Source of the DNA: Hydrogenophaga sp.
GTDB taxonomy: Bacteria; Pseudomonadota; Gammaproteobacteria; Burkholderiales; Burkholderiaceae_C
Length of the DNA: 64,000 nucleotides
Direction of reading: 5' to 3'
Assembly (NCBI RefSeq): GCF_014773545.1
Contig: NZ_SDDV01000005.1
Span: 1-64,000, forward strand
Shown here: positions 2,954 through 54,908 of the stretch, piece after piece
Position numbering within the stretch: position 1 is the stretch's first letter
How the letters are laid out: every line of letters starts with the position of its first letter
The notes under the pieces: generated by a model
What the model was told of the DNA's origin: nothing
The model's input: the letters and a program-made list of their open reading frames with translations, nothing else
Databases searched by the model: none
Made by a program: the position numbers and the translations under genes

Positions 2954-3214
2954 TCAGCGTGTCGTCGATGATCTTGCCAATTCGCGGTCTTCCAGCTCGG
3001 CTTTGATGGCTTCGGGCGTGGCGCCGGCAAAGAAGTATTCGTCGTTTGGGTCTTTCAGACGGGCCTCAATCTCGGCGCGGCGGGCGGTGAAGGTGTCGGA
3101 TATGTATTTGAGGAAGATGAGGCCGAGCACCAGGTGCTTGTATTCGGCGGCGTCTACATTGGCGCGCAGCTTGTCGGCCGTGGCCCACAGGGTTTTCTGG
3201 ATGTCTTCGAGCAT
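2954..3214 (-). pseudogene. hsdM N-terminal remnant (type I restriction-modification)
   Basis: The 86-residue reading frame matches the N-terminal helical domain of type I DNA methyltransferase subunits: [17 protein letters not shown], then [18 protein letters not shown], then [20 protein letters not shown]. Intact HsdM proteins are about 500 aa. Here similarity stops near ELEDRE, and the SAM-binding and NPPF catalytic motifs are absent. Another reading frame at the end gives [15 protein letters not shown], which may be a piece of a different gene joined by the rearrangement. No hsdS or hsdR is nearby. I read it as the stump of a lost restriction-modification locus; a short expressed protein cannot be excluded. 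Confidence 0.75.
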
Positions 3215-37569: not shown

Positions 37570-38880
37570 TCAGCGCTGCGCCAGAGGCTGCACGTCCCGG
37601 CGGCTGGCGCCGGTGAAAAGCTGGCGCGGACGGCCGATTTTGTACTCGGGGTCGCTGATCATTTCGTTGAGCTGCGCGATCCAGCCGACGGTGCGCGCCA
37701 GCGCAAAAATGCCGGTGAACAGATTGACTGGAATGCCTATCGCGCGCTGCACGATGCCGGAGTAGAAGTCCACGTTCGGGTACAGCTTGCGCGAGACGAA
37801 GTAATTGTCTTCCAGCGCAATTTTTTCCAGCTCTTTGGCCAGTTTGAACAAGGGGTCATTTTCCAGCCCGAGTTCGCCCAGCACCTCGTTGCAGGTTTCT
37901 TGCATCAGCTTGGCGCGCGGGTCGTAGTTTTTGTAAACGCGGTGACCAAATCCCATCAGTTTGACGCCGGAATTTTTGTCCTTCACCTTCTCCATGAACT
38001 CGCCCACTTTGGCCACGCCGCCGTTGCGCTGGATGTCTTCCAGCATGTTCAGGCAGGCCTCGTTGGCGCCGCCGTGGGCCGGGCCCCACAGACAGGCCAC
38101 ACCAGCGGCAATGGCGGCAAACGGGTTGGTGCCGGAGGAGCCGCACAGGCGCACGGTGGAGGTGGAAGCGTTTTGCTCGTGGTCGGCGTGCAGAATGAAG
38201 ATGCGGTCCAGCGCGCGTTCCAGCACCGGGTTGACCACGTACTCTTCGCAGGGCGTGCCAAACATCATGCGCAGGAAGTTGCCTGCGTAGCTCAGGTCGT
38301 TGCGCGGATACATATAGGGCTGACCGACGCCGTATTTATAGGCCATGGCCACCAGGGTCGGCATTTTTCCGATCAGGCGGATGGCTGCGACTTTGCGGTG
38401 CTCGGGGTTGTTGATGTCGGTGCTGTCGTGGTAGAAGGCAGAGAGCGCGCCGATCAGACCGGTGAGGACCGCCATCGGATGCGCGTCGCGACGAAAACCA
38501 CGCAAGAAGAACTGCATCTGCTCATGCACCATGGTGTGGTTGATCACCAGCTTGTGAAAATCTTGGCGCTCTTGAGCGCCGGGCAGATCGCCATTGAGCA
38601 GCAGGTAGCAGGTATCAAGGTAGTCGCACTGGGTGGCCAGTTGCTCGATCGGGTAGCCGCGGTACAGCAGCTCGCCCTTGTCGCCGTCGATGTAGGTGAT
38701 GGCCGACTGGCACGAAGCGGTAGAGAGGAAACCGGGGTCGTAGGTGAACAGGCCGGTTTGCCCGTAGAGCTTGCGGATGTCTATCACGTCCGGGCCGATA
38801 CTGCCGCCGTACACAGGCAGCTCCATGCTGGGGCTGCCGTTGGAGAACGACAGGGTGGCTTTGTTGTCTACGAGTTTCAT
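37570..38880 (-). CDS. gltA: Citrate synthase (type II)
   Basis: 436 aa, the NADH-sensitive Gram-negative type. Active-site histidines in [12 protein letters not shown] and [17 protein letters not shown], catalytic aspartate near [10 protein letters not shown]. First step of the TCA cycle, oxaloacetate plus acetyl-CoA. It ends the sdhCDAB-sdhE-gltA gene string, 23 bases after sdhE, with a good AGGAG site before the ATG. Confidence 0.98.
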
Positions 38881-38903: not shown

Positions 38904-39209
38904 TTAAACGGGTTGCACTGAGGCGCGCAGCAACGCCAATACGCGGATCACATCGTCACGGGCCAAATCATCTGGCGCAACCGTTCTTGCGAGCAGCAAA
39001 TCAAGCAAATCGTGATCAGATAAATCCATCAACTCGCCCAGGGCATGGGCTTGTCTGACGGTCAGGCTGGCTTCGTGTCGGGCAAAAAAACGCTGGATGA
39101 ACAGGTCGTTCTCCAGCAGCCCGCGGCGGCAGCGCCAGCGCAGCTTGCTCAAGGCACGCGGGTCGAGCAAGGCGTCGGGTTCGGTGTTGCCAGTCATGAA
39201 GCGGGACAT
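38904..39209 (-). CDS. sdhE: Succinate dehydrogenase assembly factor SdhE
   Basis: 101 aa. Contains the RGxxE flavinylation motif in [18 protein letters not shown] and the following helical domain ([19 protein letters not shown]). It helps attach FAD covalently to SdhA. It sits 7 bases after sdhB, in the operon of its target. ATG 39209 or the internal ATG 39197 could be the start. Confidence 0.93.
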
Positions 39210-39216
39210 GCAGGTT

Positions 39217-39921
39217 TCAGATCGCGCGTTTGACCATCATTTCTTTGATTTTGCCAATCGCCTTGGTCGGGTTCAGGCTCTTGGGGCAAACGTCGACGCA
39301 GTTCATGATGGTGTGGCAACGGAACAGGCGGTACGGGTCTTCCAGATTGTCCAGCCGCTCGGCGGTGCCCTGGTCGCGGCTGTCGGCGATGAAACGGTAA
39401 GCCTGCAACAGGCCGGCCGGGCCGACGAATTTGTCCGGATTCCACCAGAAGCTGGGGCAACTGGTGGAGCAACTGGCACACAAAATGCATTCATACAGAC
39501 CGTTGAGTTCCTCGCGCTCCTCGGGGCTTTGCAGCCGCTCCTTCTCAGGTGCGATGCTGTCGTTGATCAAATAAGGCTTGATGCTGTTGTACTGCTGGAA
39601 GAACTGCGTCATGTCGACGATCAGGTCGCGCACCACCGGCAGGCCGGGCAGCGGCTTGAGCACGATGTCGCCCTTGAGCGTGTTCATATTGGTCAGGCAG
39701 GCCAGGCCGTTCTTGCCGTTGATGTTCATGGCGTCCGAGCCGCACACCCCTTCGCGGCACGAGCGGCGAAAAGAGATGGACGGATCGACCGCCTTGAGCT
39801 TCATGAGCGCGTCCAGCAACATGCGCTCGTGGCCGTCGAGCTCGACCTGAATCGTCTGCAGGTAGGGCTTGGCGTCCTTTTCCGGGTCGTAGCGGTAAAT
39901 TTTGAAAGTGCGTAGGGCCAT
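39217..39921 (-). CDS. sdhB: Succinate dehydrogenase iron-sulfur subunit
   Basis: 234 aa. Three cluster-binding cysteine groups: SCREGVCGSDAMNINGKNGLAC for [2Fe-2S], CILCASCSTSCPSFWW for [4Fe-4S], and CHTIMNCVDVCPKSLNP for [3Fe-4S]. Passes electrons from SdhA to quinone at the SdhC/SdhD membrane anchor. Confidence 0.98.
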   Translation of the reverse strand: MALRTFKIYRYDPEKDAKPYLQTIQVELDGHERMLLDALMKLKAVDPSISFRRSCREGVCGSDAMNINGKNGLACLTNMNTLKGDIVLKPLPGLPVVRDLIVDMTQFFQQYNSIKPYLINDSIAPEKERLQSPEEREELNGLYECILCASCSTSCPSFWWNPDKFVGPAGLLQAYRFIADSRDQGTAERLDNLEDPYRLFRCHTIMNCVDVCPKSLNPTKAIGKIKEMMVKRAI

Positions 39922-39963: not shown

Positions 39964-41769
39964 TCAGAAAGTGCGAACCTTGGGCGGCACCGACGCCACC
40001 GTCAGCGGCTGCAGGTTGACCGGCTTGTACGTCAGGCTGTTGTCGGCGCTGTGCCACAGCGTGTGCTTCATCCATTCGGCGTCGTTGCGGCCCAGCGGGA
40101 ACTGCGCGTCATCGGCCGCCCGCTCATAGTCGTTCACGGTGTGCGCGCCACGGCACTCGCGCCGTGCCGCCGCCGAGGTCATGGTGGCCTGTGCCGCCTC
40201 GATCAGGTTTTCCACCTCGAGCGCTTCGATGCGCGCGGTATTGAACACGCGCGACTTGTCTTGCAGGCCGATCTGCGCCACGCGCTCACGCAAGGCGTTG
40301 ATTTTGACCACGCCCGCATCCATCACGGCTTGTGTACGGAACACGCCAGCGTGCTGCTGCATGGCGGCACGCAAGTCGTCGGCAACCGCCTGCGCGTACT
40401 CGCCGCCGCTGGCGCTGTCCAGCCGCGCCAGCCGCGCCAGCGTTTTGTCGGCAGCATCAGACGGCAGCGCTTTGCGGTTTTTCTGCTGGTCGTTGAACTG
40501 CACGATGTGGTTGCCGGCCGCACGGCCGAACACCAGCAGGTCGAGCAAGGAGTTGGTGCCCAGGCGGTTGGCGCCGTGCACGCTGACACACGAGCATTCG
40601 CCCACCGCGTACAGGCCGTTGACCACCTGTTGGCTGCCCGCTCCGTCGGGCACAAGGACCTGGCCGTTGATATTGGTCGGAATGCCGCCCATTTGGTAGT
40701 GAATGGTCGGCAGCACCGGGATGGGTTCGCGCGTGATGTCGACGTTGGCGAAGTTGACGCCAATTTCATAGACCGACGGCAGGCGCTTGTGAATCGTCTC
40801 GGCGCCCAGGTGGTCGAGCTTGAGCAGCACGTAATCCTTGTTGGGGCCGCAACCACGACCTTCCTTGATTTCCTGGTCCATGCAGCGGCTGACGAAGTCG
40901 CGCGGCGCCAAGTCTTTCAAGGTGGGCGCATAACGCTCCATGAAGCGCTCGCCGTTGCTGTTGAGCAAAATGGCACCTTCGCCCCGGCAACCTTCGGTCA
41001 GCAACACGCCCGCGCCGGCCACGCCGGTGGGGTGAAACTGCCAGAACTCCATGTCTTGCAAGGGAATGCCGGCGCGCGCTGCCATGCCCAGACCGTCACC
41101 GGTGTTGATGAAGGCGTTGGTGGAGGCGGCAAAGATGCGACCAGCGCCGCCGGTGGCCAGCAGCGTGGTTTTGGCTTCCAGAATGTAAGTCTCGCCGGTT
41201 TCCATCTCCAGCGCGGTCACGCCCAGCACGTCGCCGCTGGCGTCGCGGATCAAGTCCAGCGCCATCCACTCGACGAAGAAAGTGGTGCGGGCAGCCACGT
41301 TTTGCTGGTATAGCGTGTGCAGCATGGCGTGGCCGGTGCGGTCGGCGGCGGCGCAGGCGCGCTGCACCGGTTTTTCACCGTAGTTGGCGGTGTGACCGCC
41401 GAAGGGGCGCTGATAAATCGTGCCGTCGGGGTTGCGGTCGAACGGCATGCCAAAGTGTTCCAGCTCGTAGACCACTTTGGGTGCTTCACGGCACATGAAC
41501 TCGATGGCGTCCTGGTCGCCCAGCCAATCCGAGCCCTTGATGGTGTCGTAGAAGTGGTAGTGCCAGTTGTCCTCGCTCATATTGCCCAGCGAAGCACCAA
41601 TGCCGCCTTGCGCCGCCACGGTGTGCGAGCGGGTCGGGAACACTTTGGAGAGCACGGCGACTTTGAGGCCGGCGCGAGCCAGTTGCAAAGAGGCACGCAT
41701 GCCGGAGCCGCCAGCTCCGACGATCACCACGTCAAACTGACGCTTGGGGAGTTTGCTGGTCATGGTCAT
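39964..41769 (-). CDS. sdhA: Succinate dehydrogenase flavoprotein subunit
   Basis: 601 aa. FAD-binding VVIVGAGGSGMRASLQLARAGL, the histidine for covalent FAD in RSHTVAAQGGIGASLGN, substrate-binding QFHPTGVAGAGVLLTEGCRGEGA, and HGANRLGTNSLLDLLVFGRAAG. ATG 41769 has GGAGA upstream; ATG 41763 is a close alternative. An in-frame extension upstream overlaps sdhD and is not real. Confidence 0.98.
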   Translation of the reverse strand: MTMTSKLPKRQFDVVIVGAGGSGMRASLQLARAGLKVAVLSKVFPTRSHTVAAQGGIGASLGNMSEDNWHYHFYDTIKGSDWLGDQDAIEFMCREAPKVVYELEHFGMPFDRNPDGTIYQRPFGGHTANYGEKPVQRACAAADRTGHAMLHTLYQQNVAARTTFFVEWMALDLIRDASGDVLGVTALEMETGETYILEAKTTLLATGGAGRIFAASTNAFINTGDGLGMAARAGIPLQDMEFWQFHPTGVAGAGVLLTEGCRGEGAILLNSNGERFMERYAPTLKDLAPRDFVSRCMDQEIKEGRGCGPNKDYVLLKLDHLGAETIHKRLPSVYEIGVNFANVDITREPIPVLPTIHYQMGGIPTNINGQVLVPDGAGSQQVVNGLYAVGECSCVSVHGANRLGTNSLLDLLVFGRAAGNHIVQFNDQQKNRKALPSDAADKTLARLARLDSASGGEYAQAVADDLRAAMQQHAGVFRTQAVMDAGVVKINALRERVAQIGLQDKSRVFNTARIEALEVENLIEAAQATMTSAAARRECRGAHTVNDYERAADDAQFPLGRNDAEWMKHTLWHSADNSLTYKPVNLQPLTVASVPPKVRTF

Positions 41770-41773
41770 GGCT

Positions 41774-42139
41774 TCAGAGTCTCCAGAGAACTTCAATGGC
41801 CCAGCCCAGGCAGGCCACAAGCCAGACGATGGTGAACACATGCAGCGCCAGCCGCACGCCGGTAATCTTGACGTAATCCATCCAGACGTCGCGCATTCCG
41901 ACCCAGGCATGCCAGGCGAGTGCGATAAAGACGGCCAGCGTCAGGCCCTTCATCCAGTGCGGCACAAAAATGCCGGCCCAGGCTTCGTAACCGATCGGGC
42001 CGCTGGTGAAAATCACCTGCAGCACAACAATCAGGGTCCAAAGCGCCATCAGGGCGGCGCTGACGCGCTGCGCGAGCCAGTCGCGCAATCCGTAGCGCGC
42101 GCCGGTGACGACGCGCTGCGTACCGTGGTTGACAGTCAT
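41774..42139 (-). CDS. sdhD: Succinate dehydrogenase membrane anchor subunit
   Basis: 121 aa with three transmembrane helices (about residues 27-47, 58-79 and 93-115). Typical YGLRDWLAQRVSAALMALWTL, with the arginine and serine of the quinone site, and ALAWHAWVGMRDVWMDYVK, carrying the haem-ligand histidine. ATG 42139 starts MTVNHGTQRVVTGARYGLRDW. It ends 4 bases before the sdhA ATG. Confidence 0.95.
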   Translation of the reverse strand: MTVNHGTQRVVTGARYGLRDWLAQRVSAALMALWTLIVVLQVIFTSGPIGYEAWAGIFVPHWMKGLTLAVFIALAWHAWVGMRDVWMDYVKITGVRLALHVFTIVWLVACLGWAIEVLWRL

Positions 42140-42203
42140 GGTGTTTTTCCTTGTGAACGCGGGGAGAAATCGCTTGGGCAGGGCGTGGAAGTTGCAGCCC
42201 GGA

Positions 42204-42635
42204 TTAATAAAGCCCAAACAGTTTGGCACCCAGCAGCAGCGTCAAGCCCAGACTGAGCACCAAAGTGAAAATGGCCGACGAGCGCCCGAACGCCTTGCTC
42301 ACCGCGTGGGTCGCGTCCATGTACAGGTGGCGCAGACCGGCGATCAGGTGGTGCAGGAAGGCCCAGATCAGCGCCAGCACGACCAGTTTGAACAGCCAGC
42401 CGGGCACCAAGCCCAGGCCGACGACGAAAGCCGCAGCGAAACGATCAAATGAAATTTCGGACGACGCCGAGGTATCGAACAACCAGACGATCAGCGGCAG
42501 AAGTAAAAACATCAGGACGCCGCTGACGCGGTGCAGGATAGACACCCAGCCAGCCGCTGGCAAACGGTAGCTGGGTAGGTCGGTCACGGCGTTGATGTTG
42601 CGAAATTCGGGCCGCTTGTGGGTCAACTCGGGCAT
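42204..42635 (-). CDS. sdhC: Succinate dehydrogenase cytochrome b556 subunit
   Basis: 143 aa. N-terminal RPEFRNINAVTDLPSYRLPAAGWVSILHRVSGVLMFLLLP contains the SILHRxSG quinone-site motif; HHLIAGLRHLYMDATHAV carries the haem histidine. Three membrane helices. First gene of the sdh operon, 225 bp downstream of gntR in the same direction. Confidence 0.96.
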   Translation of the reverse strand: MPELTHKRPEFRNINAVTDLPSYRLPAAGWVSILHRVSGVLMFLLLPLIVWLFDTSASSEISFDRFAAAFVVGLGLVPGWLFKLVVLALIWAFLHHLIAGLRHLYMDATHAVSKAFGRSSAIFTLVLSLGLTLLLGAKLFGLY

Positions 42636-42860: not shown

Positions 42861-43682
42861 TCAGCTCAATTCGTTGCGGTAATGGTGCGCGTCGGTGCGG
42901 TAGATGCCGCGGCGCAGCTCCATCGGCGCGTCGTCGTAGGTATAGGCCAGGCGCTCGACGCTCAGCAGCGGATGGCCCTCGGGAACGCCCAGCCACTGGG
43001 CGGCGTCGGCGTCGGCGCTCACCGCCTTGATTTTTTCCCAGGCACGCACCATGCAGACGCCAAACCGGGTTTCGAACAAGGCGTACATCGGGCTCTGATC
43101 GCCAGACAGCAGCTCCAGTGTCAAACCCTTGAACGGCAGGCCGGGCAGCCAGATGTCTTCCAGAATGGTCGGCTGGCCGCCAAACGACAGCATGCGCCTG
43201 AGTTGCACAATCGGGTCGCCGCTGCGCAGCGCCAACAGACGCGCCACCTCGGCGCTGGCGCGCAGGCGGCGGCATTCGATGATGTGGCGCTCGGCCGGCC
43301 CTTGTTCATCGAGCGTACCGGTATCGGGCAGCAAGCGCAAAAAACGGTACGGGATGTGACTCTCAGCATGGGTGGTGACGAAAGTACCCTTGCCCTGGCG
43401 GCGCACCAGCAAGTTGTCGCCAGCGAGTTCATCGATGGCCTTGCGCACCGTTCCCTGACTGACCCGGTAGCGCGCCGCCAGTTCGACTTCGCTCGGAATA
43501 CTGTCGCCCGGCTTCCATTCACCCGCTTGCAAACTGCGCAAAATCAAGGTCTTGATTTGCTGGTAGAGCGGACTGAAAGCAGGCACTGCCAGCGCGCCGG
43601 CGTCCCCGCCTGCTGGCGCGGCAATCGTGTTGCCGGCGTCCTTGACGGGTGAATCGATCGAGACGGCGGGCGGTGTAGCCAT
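42861..43682 (-). CDS. GntR-family (HutC subfamily) transcriptional regulator
   Basis: 273 aa. After a variable N-terminus, a winged helix-turn-helix domain (PLYQQIKTLILRSLQAGEWKPGDSIPSEVELAARYRVSQGTVRKAIDELAGDNLLVRRQGKGTFV, about residues 35-100) and a C-terminal UTRA ligand-binding domain (to the end, finishing APMELRRGIYRTDAHHYRNELS). It lies between sdhC and the divergent mdh, so it probably controls TCA genes in response to a small acid; the ligand is unknown. An upstream in-frame TTG at 43751 lies on top of the proposed -10 box, so ATG 43682 is the likely start. Confidence 0.9.
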   Translation of the reverse strand: MATPPAVSIDSPVKDAGNTIAAPAGGDAGALAVPAFSPLYQQIKTLILRSLQAGEWKPGDSIPSEVELAARYRVSQGTVRKAIDELAGDNLLVRRQGKGTFVTTHAESHIPYRFLRLLPDTGTLDEQGPAERHIIECRRLRASAEVARLLALRSGDPIVQLRRMLSFGGQPTILEDIWLPGLPFKGLTLELLSGDQSPMYALFETRFGVCMVRAWEKIKAVSADADAAQWLGVPEGHPLLSVERLAYTYDDAPMELRRGIYRTDAHHYRNELS

Positions 43683-43750
43683 GATTTGCTGGTTTGCAAT
43701 GGTGGCGTCAGAGACGTTTGACGACAAGGCCAAGCTTGACGAAAAGGCCA

Positions 43751-43778
43751 ATCATATCTTATATAAGACATAAGACAA
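43751..43778 (-). promoter_or_regulatory. gntR promoter with operator in its spacer
   Basis: On the minus strand TTGTCT (43778-43773) and TATGAT (43756-43751) are 16 bp apart. The spacer contains the perfect palindrome TCTTATATAAGA (43757-43768), followed outward by a second half-site so that ATAAGAC occurs twice in tandem (43763-43776). Binding there would block RNA polymerase, so autorepression by the GntR protein is the simplest reading. Confidence 0.65.
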
Positions 43779-43924: not shown

Positions 43925-44911
43925 ATGAGCAAGAAGCCCGTTCGCGTTGCCGTCACCGGTGCCGCCGGTCAAATCGGTTACGCCCTGTTGTTTCGCATCG
44001 CCTCGGGCGAAATGCTGGGCAAGGACCAGCCCGTGATCCTGCAACTGCTGGAAATCCCCGACGAAAAAGCCCAGAAAGCGCTCAAGGGCGTGATGATGGA
44101 GCTGGACGACTGCGCCTTCCCGCTGCTGGCCGGCATGCAAGCCCATAGCGACCCGATGACCGCCTTCCAGGACACCGACTACGCGCTGCTGGTCGGCTCG
44201 CGTCCGCGTGGCCCTGGCATGGAGCGCGCCGAGCTGCTCGCCATCAACGGCGCCATCTTCACCGCCCAGGGCAAGGCCCTGAACGCCGTGGCCAGCCGCG
44301 ACGTCAAGGTGCTGGTGGTCGGCAACCCAGCCAACACCAACGCCTACATCGCCATGAAGAGCGCGCCCGACCTGAAGCCGGGCAACTTCACCGCCATGCT
44401 GCGCCTGGACCACAACCGCGCCGCCAGCCAGCTCGCCGCCAAGACCGGCAAGCCTGTCTCCAGCATCAAGAAGCTGGCCGTGTGGGGCAACCACTCGCCC
44501 ACCATGTACGCCGATTACCGCTTCGCCACCATAGCCGGCGCATCGGTCAAGGACATGATCAACGACCAGGAATGGAACGCCAACGTGTTCCTGCCCACCG
44601 TGGGCAAGCGCGGTGCCGCCATCATCGAAGCGCGCGGTCTGTCCAGCGCCGCCTCGGCCGCCAACGCCGCCATCGACCACATGCGCGACTGGGCCCTGGG
44701 CACCAGCGGCGAATGGGTCACCATGGGCATCCCCTCGCAAGGCTGGTACGGCATCCCCCAGGACGTGATGTTCGGCTTCCCCGTCACCTGCGCCAACGGC
44801 GAGTACACCGTGGTGGAAGGCCTGGCCATCGACGCTTTCTCGCAAGAGTGCATCAACAAGACCCTGGCCGAGCTGCAGGGTGAGCAAGATGGCGTCAAAC
44901 ACCTGCTGTAA
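43925..44911 (+). CDS. mdh: Malate dehydrogenase
   Basis: 328 aa. NAD-binding [25 protein letters not shown]; substrate arginines in [14 protein letters not shown]; catalytic His in [24 protein letters not shown]. This is the long form close to cytosolic/Thermus-type enzymes, common in betaproteobacteria. GGAGTC before the ATG. Divergent from gntR and followed after 18 bases by the CitE-like gene. Confidence 0.98.
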
Positions 44912-44929: not shown

Positions 44930-45910
44930 GTGATTCATCCGCGCGACATTCTCCTCGGTGCCCAGGCTGGCGCGTTCGCGCTGCCGGTCTGCGATCACTA
45001 CAGCGGGGTGGAGGCGCGGATGAAGAAAAGCCTGCGGCTGCAAGCCGACCTCACGGCCGAATTCGGCACCTGCGTCTTTGATGTCACGCTCGACTGCGAA
45101 GACGGCGCGCCCGCTGGCGGCGAGACCGAACACGCAGCCCTGGTGGCCGAGCTGGTGCTGGGCGCGCCGGTGGGCGCGCGTGTCGCGGTCCGGGTACACC
45201 CGGTCGATCACCCGCACTTTGACGCCGACATCGCCCAGATTGCAGGCAGCGCGGCGGCGCGCCTGTGTCATGTGATGCTGCCCAAGGTCGAATCGGTGGC
45301 CGACGTGCAACGCGCCGCAGCCGCACTCGACGCCGTCGGTGCCCGTGCCCTGCCGCTGCACGTCTTGATCGAATCCCCCGCTGCGGTGCAGCGCGCCTTT
45401 GACATCGCTGCGCAGCCGCGTGTGCAGTCGCTCAGCTTCGGGTTGATGGACTTTGTTTCGGCCCATGGCGGCGCCATTCCTGCCTCGGCCATGACGCTGG
45501 CCGGACAGTTCAGCCACCCGCACGTATGGCGCGCCAAGCTGGACATAGCGGCCGCCTGTCACGCGCACGGCAAGGTGGCTTCGCACAACGTAGTCACCGA
45601 GTTGAAAGACCTGGCGGCGTTGCAACACGCTGCCAGGCGTGCCGCTGCAGAGCTGGCTTACACGCGCATGTGGAGCATTCACCCGGATCAAATCCGACCC
45701 ATCATCGCGGCCTTTACACCCGACGAAGCTGCCATCGAAACGGCGACGGCGATCATAGAGCGCGCCGCCGCTTCCGACTGGGCGCCGGTGCAGCACGAAG
45801 GATGCCTGCACGACCGTGCCAGCTACCGCTACCACTGGCAAGTGATCGAACGCGCACACCAGACCGGGCACACCCTGCCCGCAAATGTGCGCGCCTGGTT
45901 TCCTGCTTGA
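44930..45910 (+). CDS. HpcH/HpaI-family CoA ester lyase (CitE-like)
   Basis: 326 aa. TIM-barrel family of CitE, malyl-CoA lyase and citramalyl-CoA lyase. Visible: FDVTLDCEDGAPAGGE (metal-site acidic residues), RVHPVDHPHFDAD, VMLPKVESVADVQ, LIESPAAVQRAF (metal-binding Glu) and FGLMDFVSAHGG. The substrate is not known; without CitD/CitF nearby it is not a citrate lyase. GTG 44930 starts 18 bases after mdh, and acnB follows after 49 bases, so mdh, this gene and acnB form one transcription unit. Confidence 0.85.
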   Translation: MIHPRDILLGAQAGAFALPVCDHYSGVEARMKKSLRLQADLTAEFGTCVFDVTLDCEDGAPAGGETEHAALVAELVLGAPVGARVAVRVHPVDHPHFDADIAQIAGSAAARLCHVMLPKVESVADVQRAAAALDAVGARALPLHVLIESPAAVQRAFDIAAQPRVQSLSFGLMDFVSAHGGAIPASAMTLAGQFSHPHVWRAKLDIAAACHAHGKVASHNVVTELKDLAALQHAARRAAAELAYTRMWSIHPDQIRPIIAAFTPDEAAIETATAIIERAAASDWAPVQHEGCLHDRASYRYHWQVIERAHQTGHTLPANVRAWFPA

Positions 45911-45959
45911 CGCTCACCCACCCCACAAACCATAACCATCAACCCCGCCGGAGAACACC

Positions 45960-48157
45960 ATGTCGACCTTCCTGACCGACTACCGCGCCCACACCGCTGA
46001 ACGCGCCGCCCTGGGCATACCGCCGCTAGCGCTCGACGCCAAACAAGTCGCGGCCCTGATCGAGCTGATCAAGGCCCCGCCCGCAGGCGAAGACGCTTTC
46101 CTGATGGACCTGCTGACGCACCGCGTGCCGCCAGGCGTGGACGACGCCGCCAAGGTCAAGGCCAGCTTCCTGGCGGCCGTGGCGCATGGTGACATCCAGG
46201 TCGGCCTGATCTCCAGGCCTAAGGCCACCGAGCTGCTGGGCACCATGGTGGGTGGCTACAACGTGCACCCGCTGATCGAGCTGCTGGACGACGCCGAGGT
46301 GGCGGCCGTGGCCGGCGCAGCGCTGAAGAAGACGCTGCTGATGTTCGATTACTTCAACGACGTGGCCGAGAAGGCCAAGGCCGGCAACGCGGTGGCCAAG
46401 GAAGTGATGCAGAGCTGGGCCGACGCCGAGTGGTTCACCAGCCGCCCCGAAGTGGAAAAGAAGATCACCGTCACCGTCTTCAAGGTGCCCGGTGAAACCA
46501 ATACCGACGACCTGTCTCCCGCGCCGGACGCCACCACGCGCCCGGACATCCCGATGCACTATCTGGCGATGCTGAAGAACACGCGCCAGGATTTTGGTAC
46601 TCCGGGTGGTGCGGCCTTCAAGCCCGAGGAAGACGGCAAGCGCGGCCCGATGCAGTTCATCGAAGACCTGAAGAAAAAGGGCCACCTGGTCGCCTACGTG
46701 GGCGACGTGGTCGGTACCGGCTCCAGCCGCAAATCGGCCACCAACAGCGTGATCTGGGCCACCGGCCAGGACATCCCCTTCGTGCCGAACAAGCGCTTTG
46801 GTGGCGTCACCCTGGGCGGCAAGATCGCCCCGATCTTCTTCAACACGCAGGAAGACTCGGGCTCGCTGCCGATTGAAGTGGACGTGTCCAAGCTGGAAAT
46901 GGGCGACGTGGTCGACGTGCTGCCCTACGACGGCAAGCTGGTCAAGAACGGCCAGACCGTGGCCGAGTTCAAGCTCAAGAGCGAGGTGCTGTTCGACGAA
47001 GTGCGCGCCGGCGGCCGCATCAACCTGATCATCGGCCGCTCGCTCACCGCCAAGGCGCGTGAATTCCTGGGCCTGGCAGCAAGCACGCTGTTCCGTCTGC
47101 CCGCTGTGCCTGCGCAAACCAAAGCCGGTTTCACGCTGGCGCAGAAGATGGTGGGCCGCGCCATCGGTCTGCCCGAGGGCCTGGGCGTGCGCCCCGGCAC
47201 CTACTGCGAGCCACGCATGACCACCGTGGGTTCGCAGGACACCACCGGCCCGATGACCCGCGACGAGCTGAAAGACCTGGCCTGCCTGGGTTTTTCCGCC
47301 GACCTGGTGATGCAGTCCTTCTGCCACACCGCGGCCTACCCCAAGCCGGTCGACGTGAAGACGCACCGCGAGCTGCCCAAGTTCATCAGCAGCCGCGGCG
47401 GCGTGGCCCTGCGCCCGGGCGACGGCGTGATCCACTCATGGCTGAACCGTCTGTTGTTGCCGGATACGGTTGGCACCGGCGGTGACTCGCACACCCGCTT
47501 CCCCATCGGCATCTCCTTCCCCGCAGGCTCGGGCCTGGTGGCCTTTGGCGCCGCCACCGGCGTGATGCCGCTGGACATGCCCGAGTCGGTGCTGGTGCGC
47601 TTCAAGGGCCAGATGCAGCCCGGCGTGACGCTGCGCGACCTGGTGCACGCGATTCCGCTGTACGCCATCAAGGCCGGTCTGCTGACGGTGGCCAAGGCCG
47701 GCAAGATCAACGCCTTCTCGGGCCGCATCCTGGAGATCGAAGGCCTGCCCGACCTGAAGGTCGAGCAGGCGTTTGAACTATCCGACGCGTCGGCCGAGCG
47801 CTCCGCCGCCGGTTGCACCATCAAGCTCAACCCCGCGCCGATCAAGGAGTACCTCAGCAGCAACATCGTGCTGATGAAGAACATGATCGCCGACGGCTAC
47901 GAAGACAAGCGCACCTTGCAGCGCCGCATCGAAAAGGTCCAAGCCTGATCGACCTGGCCGACATCAAGGAACCCATCCTGTGCTGCCCGAACGATCCGGA
48001 CGACGCCAAGTTCTTGAGCGAGGTGGCGGGCACGAAGATCGACGAAGCCTTCATCGGCTCGTGCATGACCAACATCGGCCACTTCCGCGCCGCCGCCAAG
48101 CTGCTCGGCGGCCAGCGCGACATCCCGGTCAAGCTGTGGGTCGCGCCGCCGACCAAA
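45960..48157 (+). pseudogene. acnB: Aconitate hydratase B, truncated and frameshifted
   Basis: Intact AcnB is about 860 aa. The open frame 45960-47948 gives 662 aa that match from the start ([32 protein letters not shown]) through the HEAT-like and swivel domains into the catalytic region, ending [12 protein letters not shown] and a stop. The expected next segment, about 20 residues beginning WLA, is missing. The match resumes at 47948 in another frame with IDLADIKEPILCCPNDPDDAKF and FIGSCMTNIGHFRAAAKLL, then stops at VAPPTK (about 48157). The CSLCMGN motif with two of the three cluster cysteines and the last 120 or so residues are absent. No active aconitase can come from this locus. Confidence 0.93.
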
Positions 48158-48324
48158 TCAGAAAAACTTTCCACGTATCCATGTTTCAGTGGCTCGGGAA
48201 ATTACAGAACGAATATTGCACTACCGAAAAAATCCACGAGTTCGATCTGGTGGTGGCCAAAAACTTTCTGCAGACGCCGAATGGGCACAGAGACAAAGAC
48301 TGGTGTCTGCCTGCCGCGGGTTGT
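48158..48324. other. Unidentified lower-GC DNA at the acnB break
   Basis: About 167 bp that replace the acnB 3' end. The first 90 bases are clearly AT-richer than the surroundings. Plus-strand translation contains WLGKLQNEYCTTEKIHEFDLVVAKNFLQT, which has a protein-like composition, but I recognise no family and the frame is open at neither end. Probably the end of an inserted element. Confidence 0.5.
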
Positions 48325-48755
48325 CATAGACGTCTCGTGGGCCCGGTCCATCTCCACCAGCAACGCCACGTTGGCGGCCGTGTACTTGCGCGCGGCCGTA
48401 GCCGCTGGTAGGGCGCAGGTAGGTCAGCACCACACCGCGTTCGCGCTTGTGCGCTGGGGGTGGTCAAACCGAGTCAGCACCCGACTGATGTGTTCGTAGC
48501 GCTGGTTATCGGCCGCACTACCTGGGGCTGGGCTGTGAACGCCAGCTGCGGCGTTGCGCTGAGAAACAGTTGCAACTGCTCAAGGCTTCGATAGGGCCTG
48601 ATGGTCTGCGCAGGCAAGTCATTCAAAAAGCCCACGGCGTCCCTAAGCTGCCATCTCAAATCCTCGTAGCCGACGCGCCCGCTGCCGACAACCCATAGGC
48701 GCCGCCGCGTACCGACGACAATCTCGGATAATTCGCTTTTCTGAACACCCGCCAT
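48325..48755 (-). pseudogene. Decayed integrase/transposase-like gene
   Basis: Read on the minus strand from ATG 48755, pieces in different frames follow one another in order. First GTRRRLWVVGSGRVGYEDLRWQLRDAVGFLNDL up to QPQVVR, then NQRYEHISRVLTRFDHPQ, then RGVVLTYLRPTSGYGRAQV, then RKYTAANVALLVEMDRAHET. The last three resemble the N-terminal helix-turn-helix part of integrase-core (IS481-like) transposases as I recall them. Two frameshifts and an internal deletion separate the pieces, and the DDE catalytic core is missing. The 93-residue first frame could be called as a gene, but it looks like the front end of this wreck. It abuts the acnB break. Confidence 0.5.
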
Positions 48756-49233
48756 GACCGAGCCGATCGACTACCCCAGCACCTCGCCCCAGGTTTTGTC
48801 TGCCGTCAGGCGCACGCGCTGGCTCGCCGTGGGCAGCCTGCTGGGCCTGATCGTGCTCGGCTTGGCCTGGGAGCTGTGGCTGGCCCCGCTGCGCCCAGGT
48901 GGCTCGTGGTGGGCGATCAAGGTGTTGCCGCTGACGCTGCCGCTGATTGGCTTGCTGAAAAACCGCATGTACACCTACCGCTGGGTCAGCCTGTTGGTGT
49001 GGTTGTATTTTGCCGAAGGTGTCATGCGCGTCTACAGCGACGCCGGCTTGTCGGCGTGGCTGGCCGGGCTGCAGGTGTTGCTGTGCGTGTGCTTGTTTGT
49101 CGCTTGCGCGCTGCACGTGCGCATCCGGCTGCGCGGCGCGGGCAAAGCCGCTGTGGCAGCCGACCAGGTGCGCCATGCCGCCGCCATTGGCGCCGCCACC
49201 GACCCGGTGGCGGCGCCCGCCGAGCGGCCATGA
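48754..49233 (+). CDS. DUF2069 membrane protein
   Basis: 159 aa with four hydrophobic segments (about residues 22-42, 54-70, 78-95 and 103-122). SWWAIKVLPLTLPLIGLLKNRMYTYRWVSLLVWLYFAEGVMR is the DUF2069 pattern. Function unknown. The ATG shares bases with the start of the decayed gene on the other strand, so its promoter must lie in that remnant. It overlaps the next gene by 4 bases. Confidence 0.85.
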   Translation: MTEPIDYPSTSPQVLSAVRRTRWLAVGSLLGLIVLGLAWELWLAPLRPGGSWWAIKVLPLTLPLIGLLKNRMYTYRWVSLLVWLYFAEGVMRVYSDAGLSAWLAGLQVLLCVCLFVACALHVRIRLRGAGKAAVAADQVRHAAAIGAATDPVAAPAERP

Positions 49234-50651
49234 ACGAGTTGCTGGCGCTGTTGCGCCAGACCGTGGGCGCGCACCACGTGCTCACGCATGAGGATCCGAA
49301 CGCCGACCTGAGCGCCTGGGAGCAAGACTGGCGCGGCCGCAGCCGGGGCCGCGCGCTGGCGGTGGTGCGCCCGGCCAACACCGAAGAAGTCGCCGCCGTG
49401 CTGCGCGCCTGCGCCGGCGCCGGTGCGGCGATCGTGCCGCAAGGCGGCAACACCGGGTTGGTGCTGGGTTCGGTGCCCGACGCCTCGGGCACACAAGTGC
49501 TGCTCAGCCTTGGACGCATGGACGCGGTGCTCGAGCTCGACGCGGCCAACGCCAGCGTCACGGTGCAAGCCGGCTGCGTGTTGCAAAACCTGCAACAAGT
49601 GGCCGCCCAAGCCGGTTTTCTGTTCCCCTTGCGCCTGGCCTCTGAGGGCAGTTGCACCATCGGCGGCAACTTGGCCAGCAACGCTGGCGGCACCCAGGTG
49701 CTGCGCTACGGCAACGCACGCGAGCTCTGTCTGGGGCTGGAACTGGTGACGGCGCAAGGCGATGTCTGGCACGGCCTGTCGGGTCTGCGCAAAGACAACA
49801 GCGGCTACGACTTGCGCAACCTCTTCATTGGCAGCGAAGGCACGCTGGGGGTCATCACCGCCGCCACCCTCAAGCTCTACCCGCTGCCAGCGGCGCAGTT
49901 GTGCGCCTGGGCCGCCGTGCCCAGTCTGGGCGCTGCGCTGGAACTGCTCAGCCACGCGCAGCGGCAACTGGGCGCTGGCCTGACGGGTTTTGAAATCATG
50001 GGCCAGTTCGCACTCAGCCTGGTGGCCCGGCACTTCCCGCACTTGCGCGTGCCGCCGTGGCAAGGCGCGCCCTATGGCGTGCTGCTGGAATGCAGCGACA
50101 ACGAATCTCAAAGCCATGCCCAGGCCAGCCTGGAGCGCCTGCTGGGCTGCGCGCTCGAACTCGGCACGGTCAGCGACGCCGTCTTGCCGACCAGCCTGGC
50201 GCAGGCGCAGCAGCTCTGGCAGGTGCGCGAGCACATTGCACTGGCGCAGGCCAAAGAAGGGCCTAACATCAAGCACGACATCGCGCTGCCGGTCTCGCGC
50301 ATTCCGGCCTTTTGCGCCGAGACCGATGCCCTGCTGCAACGCGAATGGCCCGGTGTGCGGCTGGTCACTTTCGGTCACCTGGGCGACGGCAACCTGCACT
50401 ACAACGTGCAAGCCCCTGCCGGGGTGGATGCAGCCGTTTTTTTGCGCGACTGGGAAGCGCGCATCAACACTCTGGTGTTTGACGCCGTGACGCGCTACCA
50501 TGGCAGCGTCAGCGCCGAGCACGGCATTGGCAGCCTGAGAGCGGGCTTGCTGCCGCAGTACAAAGACCCGGTGGCGCTCAGGCTGATGCGCGCTGTCAAG
50601 CAAGCACTAGACCCGCAAGGGATCATGAACCCCGGTCGCGTCCTGTCATGA
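49230..50651 (+). CDS. FAD-binding oxidoreductase, D-2-hydroxyacid dehydrogenase (GlcD-like)
   Basis: 473 aa. PCMH-type FAD-binding domain (residues about 40-220: VRPANTEEVAAVLRACAGAGAAIVPQGGNTGLV, GCTIGGNLASNAGGTQVLRYGNARE), and a C-terminal FAD-oxidase domain with VTFGHLGDGNLHYNV and SAEHGIGSLRAGLL, which hold the metal-site and catalytic histidines of D-lactate and D-2-hydroxyglutarate dehydrogenases. The substrate is probably a D-2-hydroxyacid. ATG overlaps the DUF2069 stop; the next gene overlaps its own stop. Confidence 0.88.
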   Translation: MNELLALLRQTVGAHHVLTHEDPNADLSAWEQDWRGRSRGRALAVVRPANTEEVAAVLRACAGAGAAIVPQGGNTGLVLGSVPDASGTQVLLSLGRMDAVLELDAANASVTVQAGCVLQNLQQVAAQAGFLFPLRLASEGSCTIGGNLASNAGGTQVLRYGNARELCLGLELVTAQGDVWHGLSGLRKDNSGYDLRNLFIGSEGTLGVITAATLKLYPLPAAQLCAWAAVPSLGAALELLSHAQRQLGAGLTGFEIMGQFALSLVARHFPHLRVPPWQGAPYGVLLECSDNESQSHAQASLERLLGCALELGTVSDAVLPTSLAQAQQLWQVREHIALAQAKEGPNIKHDIALPVSRIPAFCAETDALLQREWPGVRLVTFGHLGDGNLHYNVQAPAGVDAAVFLRDWEARINTLVFDAVTRYHGSVSAEHGIGSLRAGLLPQYKDPVALRLMRAVKQALDPQGIMNPGRVLS

Positions 50652-54013: not shown

Positions 54014-54787
54014 ATGCAACTGGCCACCTGGAATATAAATTCGCTCACCGTGCGCCTGCCGCAGGTGCTGGACTGGCTAGGCGCACACCCGGTCGACGTG
54101 CTGGCGCTGCAAGAACTCAAACTCAGCGACGATAAGTTTCCCGTCCAGGCCTTTGCCGACGTCGGCTATCAGGCGCAGTGGCACGGGCAGAAAACCTACA
54201 ACGGCGTGGCCTTGCTGAGCCGTTCGGCGGCGACCGAGGTGGTGAAAAATATCCCCGGTTTTGCCGATGAGCAGGCGCGCGTGCTCAGCGCCAGCATTGC
54301 CGGGGTGCGCGTGATTGGCGCCTACTTTCCCAATGGCCAAGCGCCGGGCAGCGATAAATTCGCCTACAAAATGCGCTGGCTCGACGCGCTGCACGATTGG
54401 GTGCGCAGCGAAATGGCGGCGCACCCCCATTTGGTGCTGCTGGGCGACTACAACATCACCTTTGACGACGCCGACGTCTGGGACCCGGTCGGCTTGGTCG
54501 GCAGCATCCACTGCACGGACGAAGAGCGCGCGCAGTTGCAGCGCCTGCTTGACCTGGGCTTGCACGACGCGCTGCGCTTGTTTGCGCCAGCAGAAAAAAG
54601 CTTCACCTGGTGGGACTACCGCGAATTCGCTTTTAGGCGCAACCGCGGGCTGCGCATCGACCACATCTTGATCAGCAAGGCGCTCGCCGCCCGCGCCCGC
54701 GCCTGCGTTATCGACAAAACCCCACGCAAAAACGAACGTCCGAGCGACCACGCGCCGGTGCTGCTGACGCTGGATGCAGTGCCTTAA
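54014..54787 (+). CDS. xth: Exodeoxyribonuclease III
   Basis: 257 aa. AP endonuclease/exonuclease family: LATWNINSLTVRLPQVLDWL, DVLALQELKLSDDKFP (metal Glu), LLGDYNITFDDADVWD, and RNRGLRIDHILISKAL with the C-terminal PSDHAPVLLTL (catalytic Asp-His). Acts in base-excision repair. Gene ends shortly before a pair of inverted repeats, and is convergent with ntrC. Confidence 0.96.
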   Translation: MQLATWNINSLTVRLPQVLDWLGAHPVDVLALQELKLSDDKFPVQAFADVGYQAQWHGQKTYNGVALLSRSAATEVVKNIPGFADEQARVLSASIAGVRVIGAYFPNGQAPGSDKFAYKMRWLDALHDWVRSEMAAHPHLVLLGDYNITFDDADVWDPVGLVGSIHCTDEERAQLQRLLDLGLHDALRLFAPAEKSFTWWDYREFAFRRNRGLRIDHILISKALAARARACVIDKTPRKNERPSDHAPVLLTLDAVP

Positions 54788-54817
54788 CGTGAAAGTCGGG
54801 CCGCGACTCACTTCGCT

Positions 54818-54843
54818 CCCCTCTCCCGCGTGCGGGAGAGGGG
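54818..54843. repeat. REP-like hairpin after xth
   Basis: CCCCTCTCCCGC - GT - GCGGGAGAGGGG, a perfect 12-bp stem. It is followed by TTGGGGGTGAGGGAGA, a layout I recognise from dispersed intergenic repeats in many proteobacteria. It lies between convergent genes and could also serve as a transcript end. Confidence 0.7.
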
Positions 54844-54858
54844 TTGGGGGTGAGGGAG

Positions 54859-54908
54859 AACGGGCATGACTTTCATTTTTTGGGGCGCCTTTTAAAGTCA
54901 TGCCCGTT
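54859..54908. repeat. 15-bp perfect inverted repeat between xth and ntrC
   Basis: AACGGGCATGACTTT (54859-54873) and AAAGTCATGCCCGTT (54894-54908) with a 20-base spacer. The flanking T-run of the spacer (TCATTTTTT) suggests a bidirectional terminator, or the ends of a tiny inserted element; the copies are exact, so it is recent or under selection. Confidence 0.7.

Follow-up and report, generated by a model that had tools for sequence, protein, structure and literature searches.

The window, a stretch of 64,000 nucleotides, corresponds to bases 1-64000 of contig C15 in a 19-contig genome assembly that totals 2,209,803 bases and is 99.98% complete and 0.02% contaminated. It carries a block of TCA cycle genes. 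On the minus strand, domain searches identified an open gltA, encoding citrate synthase (37570..38880), and a gene for a GntR-family regulator (42861..43751). Between them, on the same strand, lie a gene for an sdhE-type protein (38904..39209; Pfam Sdh5), an open gene at 39217..39921 that we take to be sdhB, based on the ORF list and its similarity to relatives, an open sdhA (39964..41910 as listed, its true start probably being downstream), and 2 genes for succinate dehydrogenase membrane anchors (41774..42635; Pfam Sdh_cyt). On the plus strand, domain searches identified an open mdh, encoding malate dehydrogenase (43925..44911), followed by an HpcH/HpaI (CitE-like) lyase-family gene (44930..45910) located immediately upstream of acnB. 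An earlier note on this DNA had described a broken acnB within an otherwise intact TCA gene block, and the open reading frames of the neighboring genes agree with that description.

The 5' part of acnB occupies 45960..47948 on the plus strand. According to the ORF list it is an open frame of 662 codons, encoding 662 amino acids, that terminates at a frameshift stop. Pfam and a full-length AcnB query resolved HEAT-like, swivel and partial catalytic domains in its product: the HEAT-like domain (Aconitase_B_N, PF11791; residues 7-159) and the swivel domain (Aconitase_2_N, PF06434; residues 171-391) are complete, while the catalytic Aconitase domain is represented by profile positions 96-245 of 463 only. 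Nucleotide matches to the acnB genes of relatives halt at 47947 and restart at 47947/48, leaving ~60 bases of the relatives unmatched in between. Counted by eye against one such relative (L103), the gap measures 61 nt, and a missing stretch of this length accounts for the frameshift. The deletion site maps to 47946..47949 (plus strand), where the out-of-frame stop TGA is found. Beyond it, acnB continues out of frame for 209 nt (47948..48156, plus strand), a piece of 69 codons that is free of additional stops or indels, reads IDLADIKEPIL...FIGSCMTNIGHF...VAPPTK and contains GSCMTN, which bears one of the 3 presumed cluster cysteines. Since the acnB matches in all 44 listed loci from other genomes end at 48156 (41/44) or 48157 (3/44), a count that leaves out the window's own genome (n=1) from the 45 loci listed, we place the last base of acnB at 48156.

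The cysteines of GSCMTN and CSLCMGN, which we presume to be the [4Fe-4S] cluster ligands of AcnB, occupy positions 716, 774 and 777 of the Serpentinimonas barnesii protein. The only cysteines of the 662-residue product are at 416, 442, 455 and 619, and all 3 presumed ligands fall outside of it, GSCMTN being out of frame and CSLCMGN being absent. When the whole assembly was searched with full-length AcnB, residues 4-658 and 677-750 were recovered together with a single LeuC match and nothing else; the CSLCMGN motif was not found anywhere in the assembly, and the last 116 residues (751-866) are lost from this acnB. The combination of a frameshift with loss of the 3' end is far beyond chance. Set against the intact AcnB of many relatives, these lesions are predicted to be inactivating, and on sequence grounds they class acnB as a probable pseudogene. 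The 662-codon frame retaining its HEAT and swivel domains, the shift of frame caused by ~60 missing nucleotides, the short out-of-frame continuation with GSCMTN, the missing CSLCMGN and the replacement of the 3' end by unrelated DNA of lower G+C content had each been put forward in the earlier note, and each was confirmed here; the extent it gave for the region, up to 48324, required correction to 48156.

Based on its composition and on searches against relatives and plasmids, the DNA that replaces the 3' end of acnB (48157..48753) is unrelated to the gene. Its G+C content is 58.6%, and that of its first 174 nt is 47.7%, compared to 65.7% for acnB and 63.7% for the window. It begins with a dispersed stretch of ~70 nt (48157..48226) that is 81-82% identical to an intergenic sequence elsewhere in the same genome, located between clpS and another gene (G000:C1:61784-61854, L120). 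Further along, 48331..48442 (minus strand) contains degenerate pieces with broken frames that resemble a transposase of the rve type. Positions 48341-48393 of this strand share 83% DNA identity over 53 nt with a gene of another genome (G008) for a 425-residue protein carrying an rve integrase core, and two 20-residue pieces match that protein at 60% and 70%. The resemblance is short and weak. Because the pieces sit in different frames, they suggest an old, decayed element; no terminal repeats of a mobile element were recognized at the junction. Searches of 48157-48753 against plasmids returned no DNA match. The 93-residue ORF of this DNA matched no plasmid and no Pfam or NCBIfam family, and a 41-residue piece gave a single weak plasmid match (E = 3). 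DNA spanning 47700-48760 matched 47 plasmid records, and the 5 listed of these 47 all cover the acnB part only. The first gene past the break encodes a DUF2069 membrane protein (48754..49233, plus strand). In 10/10 relatives searched, the block containing this gene lies away from acnB, being distant on the same contig in 7 and on another contig in 3, indicating that the junction represents a synteny break.

Two regions of the window lying apart from this locus are recorded here as separate observations. An 86-residue ORF at 2954-3214 (minus strand) matches only positions 1-49 of 135 of PF12161, the HsdM N-terminal domain, and appears to come from a type I methylase gene that has been truncated. 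A dispersed repeat of ~125 nt (54754-54878), located downstream of an exonuclease-like gene, is 90% identical to a copy on contig C14 of the same genome (L143 1366-1488).

The enzymatic steps on either side of aconitase remain encoded. Elsewhere in the genome are open genes for an NADP-dependent and a TIGR02924-type isocitrate dehydrogenase, as well as for the E1 (SucA) and E2 (SucB) components of 2-oxoglutarate dehydrogenase, together with a glutamate synthase-type protein in an open frame of 1620 residues. Tartrate dehydrogenase and LeuB are likewise present, and no monomeric isocitrate dehydrogenase was found in the genome. An IS4-type transposase ORF of 341 residues (DDE_Tnp_1, Nterm_IS4; G000:C1, L137 3028-4053, minus strand) lies just past the NADP-isocitrate dehydrogenase gene, near a contig end.

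The earlier note had reasoned that loss of AcnB should be tolerated only if another aconitase (AcnA, AcnD or a second AcnB) were functional. Our search for such an enzyme covered PF00330, AcnA, AcnB and MmgE/PrpD. The PF00330 profile detected only LeuC (contig C18) and the acnB remnant in the assembly, in a search for which the control was positive in 14/14 genomes. The best match to an AcnA query was 1.3e-14, in the same range as LeuC in other genomes. Across 67 genomes of the genus, that of the window included, 56/67 matched this query at 1e-70 or better; besides the window genome, the ten lacking such a match are 59-93% complete. No AcnA- or AcnD-type protein was found in the 2.21-Mb assembly, AcnB residues 751-866 occur nowhere in it save for the LeuC match, and MmgE/PrpD is absent from it (control positive in 7/14 genomes). 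These searches rule out a second aconitase of the families covered elsewhere in this assembly, leaving the break without the backup that the earlier note had considered necessary. The aconitase-family protein on C18 scored 729.6 bits as LeuC (cut-off 560.25) and 234.4 bits as aconitate hydratase NF005558 (cut-off 612), and leuD adjoins its gene. Invariant columns were changed at 1/239 positions in LeuC and 0/74 in LeuD, the latter result holding whether or not the genome's own copy (L135) was among the sequences compared. These ordinary scores and columns, which contain nothing unusual, led us to reject an altered LeuCD. One member of the genus that is 92% complete (G016) gave no aconitase-family match at all, LeuC included, and is perhaps an incomplete bin.

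Relatives place these findings in context. A tree built from concatenated GltA, SdhB, SdhA and Mdh, using the 24/31 rows with at least 1000 residues, recovered S. barnesii H1 as the sister of the window genome (support 99/97). Genome sizes of 2.48-2.62 Mb are given for Serpentinimonas in PMC8513617. The AcnB of S. barnesii is 89% identical to the remnant over residues 4-658. The window gene resembles the AcnB family in its order of HEAT-like, swivel and catalytic domains and in a neighborhood of mdh, sdh and gltA; it differs in being frameshifted at codon 663 and in lacking the last 116 residues with the CSLCMGN cysteines. By the same family search, S. barnesii and a further genome (G009) possess LeuC and AcnB only. 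Reliance on AcnB alone therefore looks older than the break, and since AcnB is the only aconitase of S. barnesii by this search, the sole aconitase of the window genome seems to be the one that is broken. In another small genome (G047), acnB is distributed over two contig ends (G047:C49 and G047:C9; L139, L140), with residues 1-615 and 724-866 present and 616-723 missing, a pattern that may simply reflect a gap in the assembly.

We then asked how well the remnant has been preserved. Relative to 90 intact AcnB homologues, 0/303 invariant columns are changed in the remnant, a test of low power in that 65/90 intact rows likewise have 0 changes and the maximum is 5. Residues unique to the window number 4/388 in the HEAT and swivel region, two of these four being in an insertion, and 1/259 in the partial catalytic region. 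An in-frame insertion lies in the swivel region at about codons 213-218; at two residues tested, 89/90 homologues have a gap. The 69 codons of the out-of-frame piece contain 0 unique amino-acid changes and 2 unique synonymous changes. One result leans toward relaxed constraint: for the 662-codon part, the ratio of unique amino-acid to synonymous changes is 8:16, the highest among five genes compared in this genome; the other four together give 28:107, a difference that is not significant (Fisher p = 0.19), and the 8:16 ratio falls inside the range of intact acnB genes. The remnant thus exhibits no clear decay, which means that the break is either very recent or not real.

These measurements bear directly on the regulatory leftover that the earlier note had considered conceivable. 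In this reading, selection would retain the 662-residue HEAT/swivel product as a regulator that binds RNA or protein and is devoid of enzyme activity. Its HEAT and swivel domains are indeed complete and undecayed, and one useful fragment of AcnB is already known: as described in PMC7336809, AcnSP of Synechocystis is a 44-residue peptide resembling the AcnB N-terminus that raises the efficiency of aconitase. Like the window fragment, AcnSP derives from acnB, in its case by duplication and frameshift; unlike the 662-residue fragment, for which no full AcnB was found, it is 44 residues long, plasmid-borne and accompanied by full AcnB, according to the same paper. As portrayed there, moreover, AcnSP acts on a working aconitase, none of which was found in the window genome, and the HEAT-like domain carries hardly any surface charge that would suit RNA (PMC7336809). 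Equal preservation is seen in the partial catalytic region and the N-terminal domains (1/259 vs 4/388 unique residues), and it extends to the out-of-frame piece, which is not translated; the state of the N-terminal domains can therefore be explained without selection acting on them. Retention as a regulator is consequently very improbable in our view, and the equal preservation of dispensable parts favors a very recent break over prolonged retention. No Rfam element was found in 45000-50000, a further point against this reading and the reason for rejecting a regulatory RNA at the locus. In another explanation, loss of acnB is tolerated and the cycle still runs by way of LeuCD of relaxed specificity or an unrecognized, non-homologous aconitase. 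Either would account for the open genes of citrate synthase, two isocitrate dehydrogenases and 2-oxoglutarate dehydrogenase, yet the LeuC profile scores are typical of leuC and below the aconitate hydratase cut-off, the invariant columns of LeuC and LeuD are ordinary, and MmgE/PrpD is absent, making this explanation quite improbable. We regard as improbable, too, that the last aconitase has been lost while citrate is converted to isocitrate by an enzyme outside the known aconitases, LeuCD of widened specificity or an unrecognized protein, or while neighbors pass on isocitrate or 2-oxoglutarate.

More serious, although still unlikely, is an artefact or mixture: acnB would be intact in the living organism, and the broken form would stem from misassembly, from a chimera formed during amplification or from a minority strain variant taken up into the assembly. 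All other tested pathway genes are open and the remnant lacks clear decay, as would be expected of an acnB that functions in the organism, and the split acnB of G047, with its missing residues 616-723, provides a second case of an interrupted gene in a small-genome member. Had the loss of so important an enzyme been settled, a less healthy remnant and a less complete set of neighboring enzymes would be expected, and the picture seen here also fits an artefact. Against an artefact stand two separate lesions within about 210 nt. In addition, the ends of the deletion share almost no sequence and the relatives diverge immediately past 48156, such that a k-mer misjoin has nothing to act on. The 14-mers across both junctions do not recur in 181,836 bases of the same genome (at most 8% of it, partly overlapping), the missing end of AcnB is not on any other contig, and a weak relative of the joined foreign DNA occurs both in this genome and within the genus.

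Taken together, these findings make it probable that acnB is a very recent pseudogene, formerly the last true aconitase of a small-genome lineage, broken by deletion and rearrangement. Judging from its kin, the ancestor probably already lacked AcnA. Loss of 61 nt would have put the gene out of frame from codon 663 onward. The last fifth of acnB would have been replaced, and its flank joined to a locus situated elsewhere in relatives, when the DNA was rearranged at a decayed mobile element; the part assigned to the mobile element and the order of the two lesions are both conjectural. Because the 662-residue product could not hold the [4Fe-4S] cluster, citrate would not reach isocitrate by way of aconitase, and the TCA cycle would be cut between citrate synthase and isocitrate dehydrogenase. 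Growth would presumably need 2-oxoglutarate, glutamate or a neighbor supplying them.

Recent pseudogenes at mobile-element scars share with this locus a truncation by deletion, a foreign flank, debris weakly resembling a transposase and a small genome. Those usual in shrinking genomes involve the loss of dispensable or already redundant genes. The window gene, in contrast, seems to be the only aconitase, and both neighboring steps are still encoded. Gene loss of this kind is ordinary, the unusual feature being how essential the affected step is, and we found no published report of the case in the open literature. If the break were an artefact, pathway calls made automatically on a genome like this one would go wrong at the aconitase step. 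If it is real, the locus would capture a central TCA enzyme being lost while the adjacent enzymes have yet to decay, and would provide a test of whether isocitrate dehydrogenase only briefly outlives aconitase. For this small-genome lineage near hydrogen-using Comamonadaceae, it would forecast a need for glutamate or 2-oxoglutarate and a build-up of citrate.
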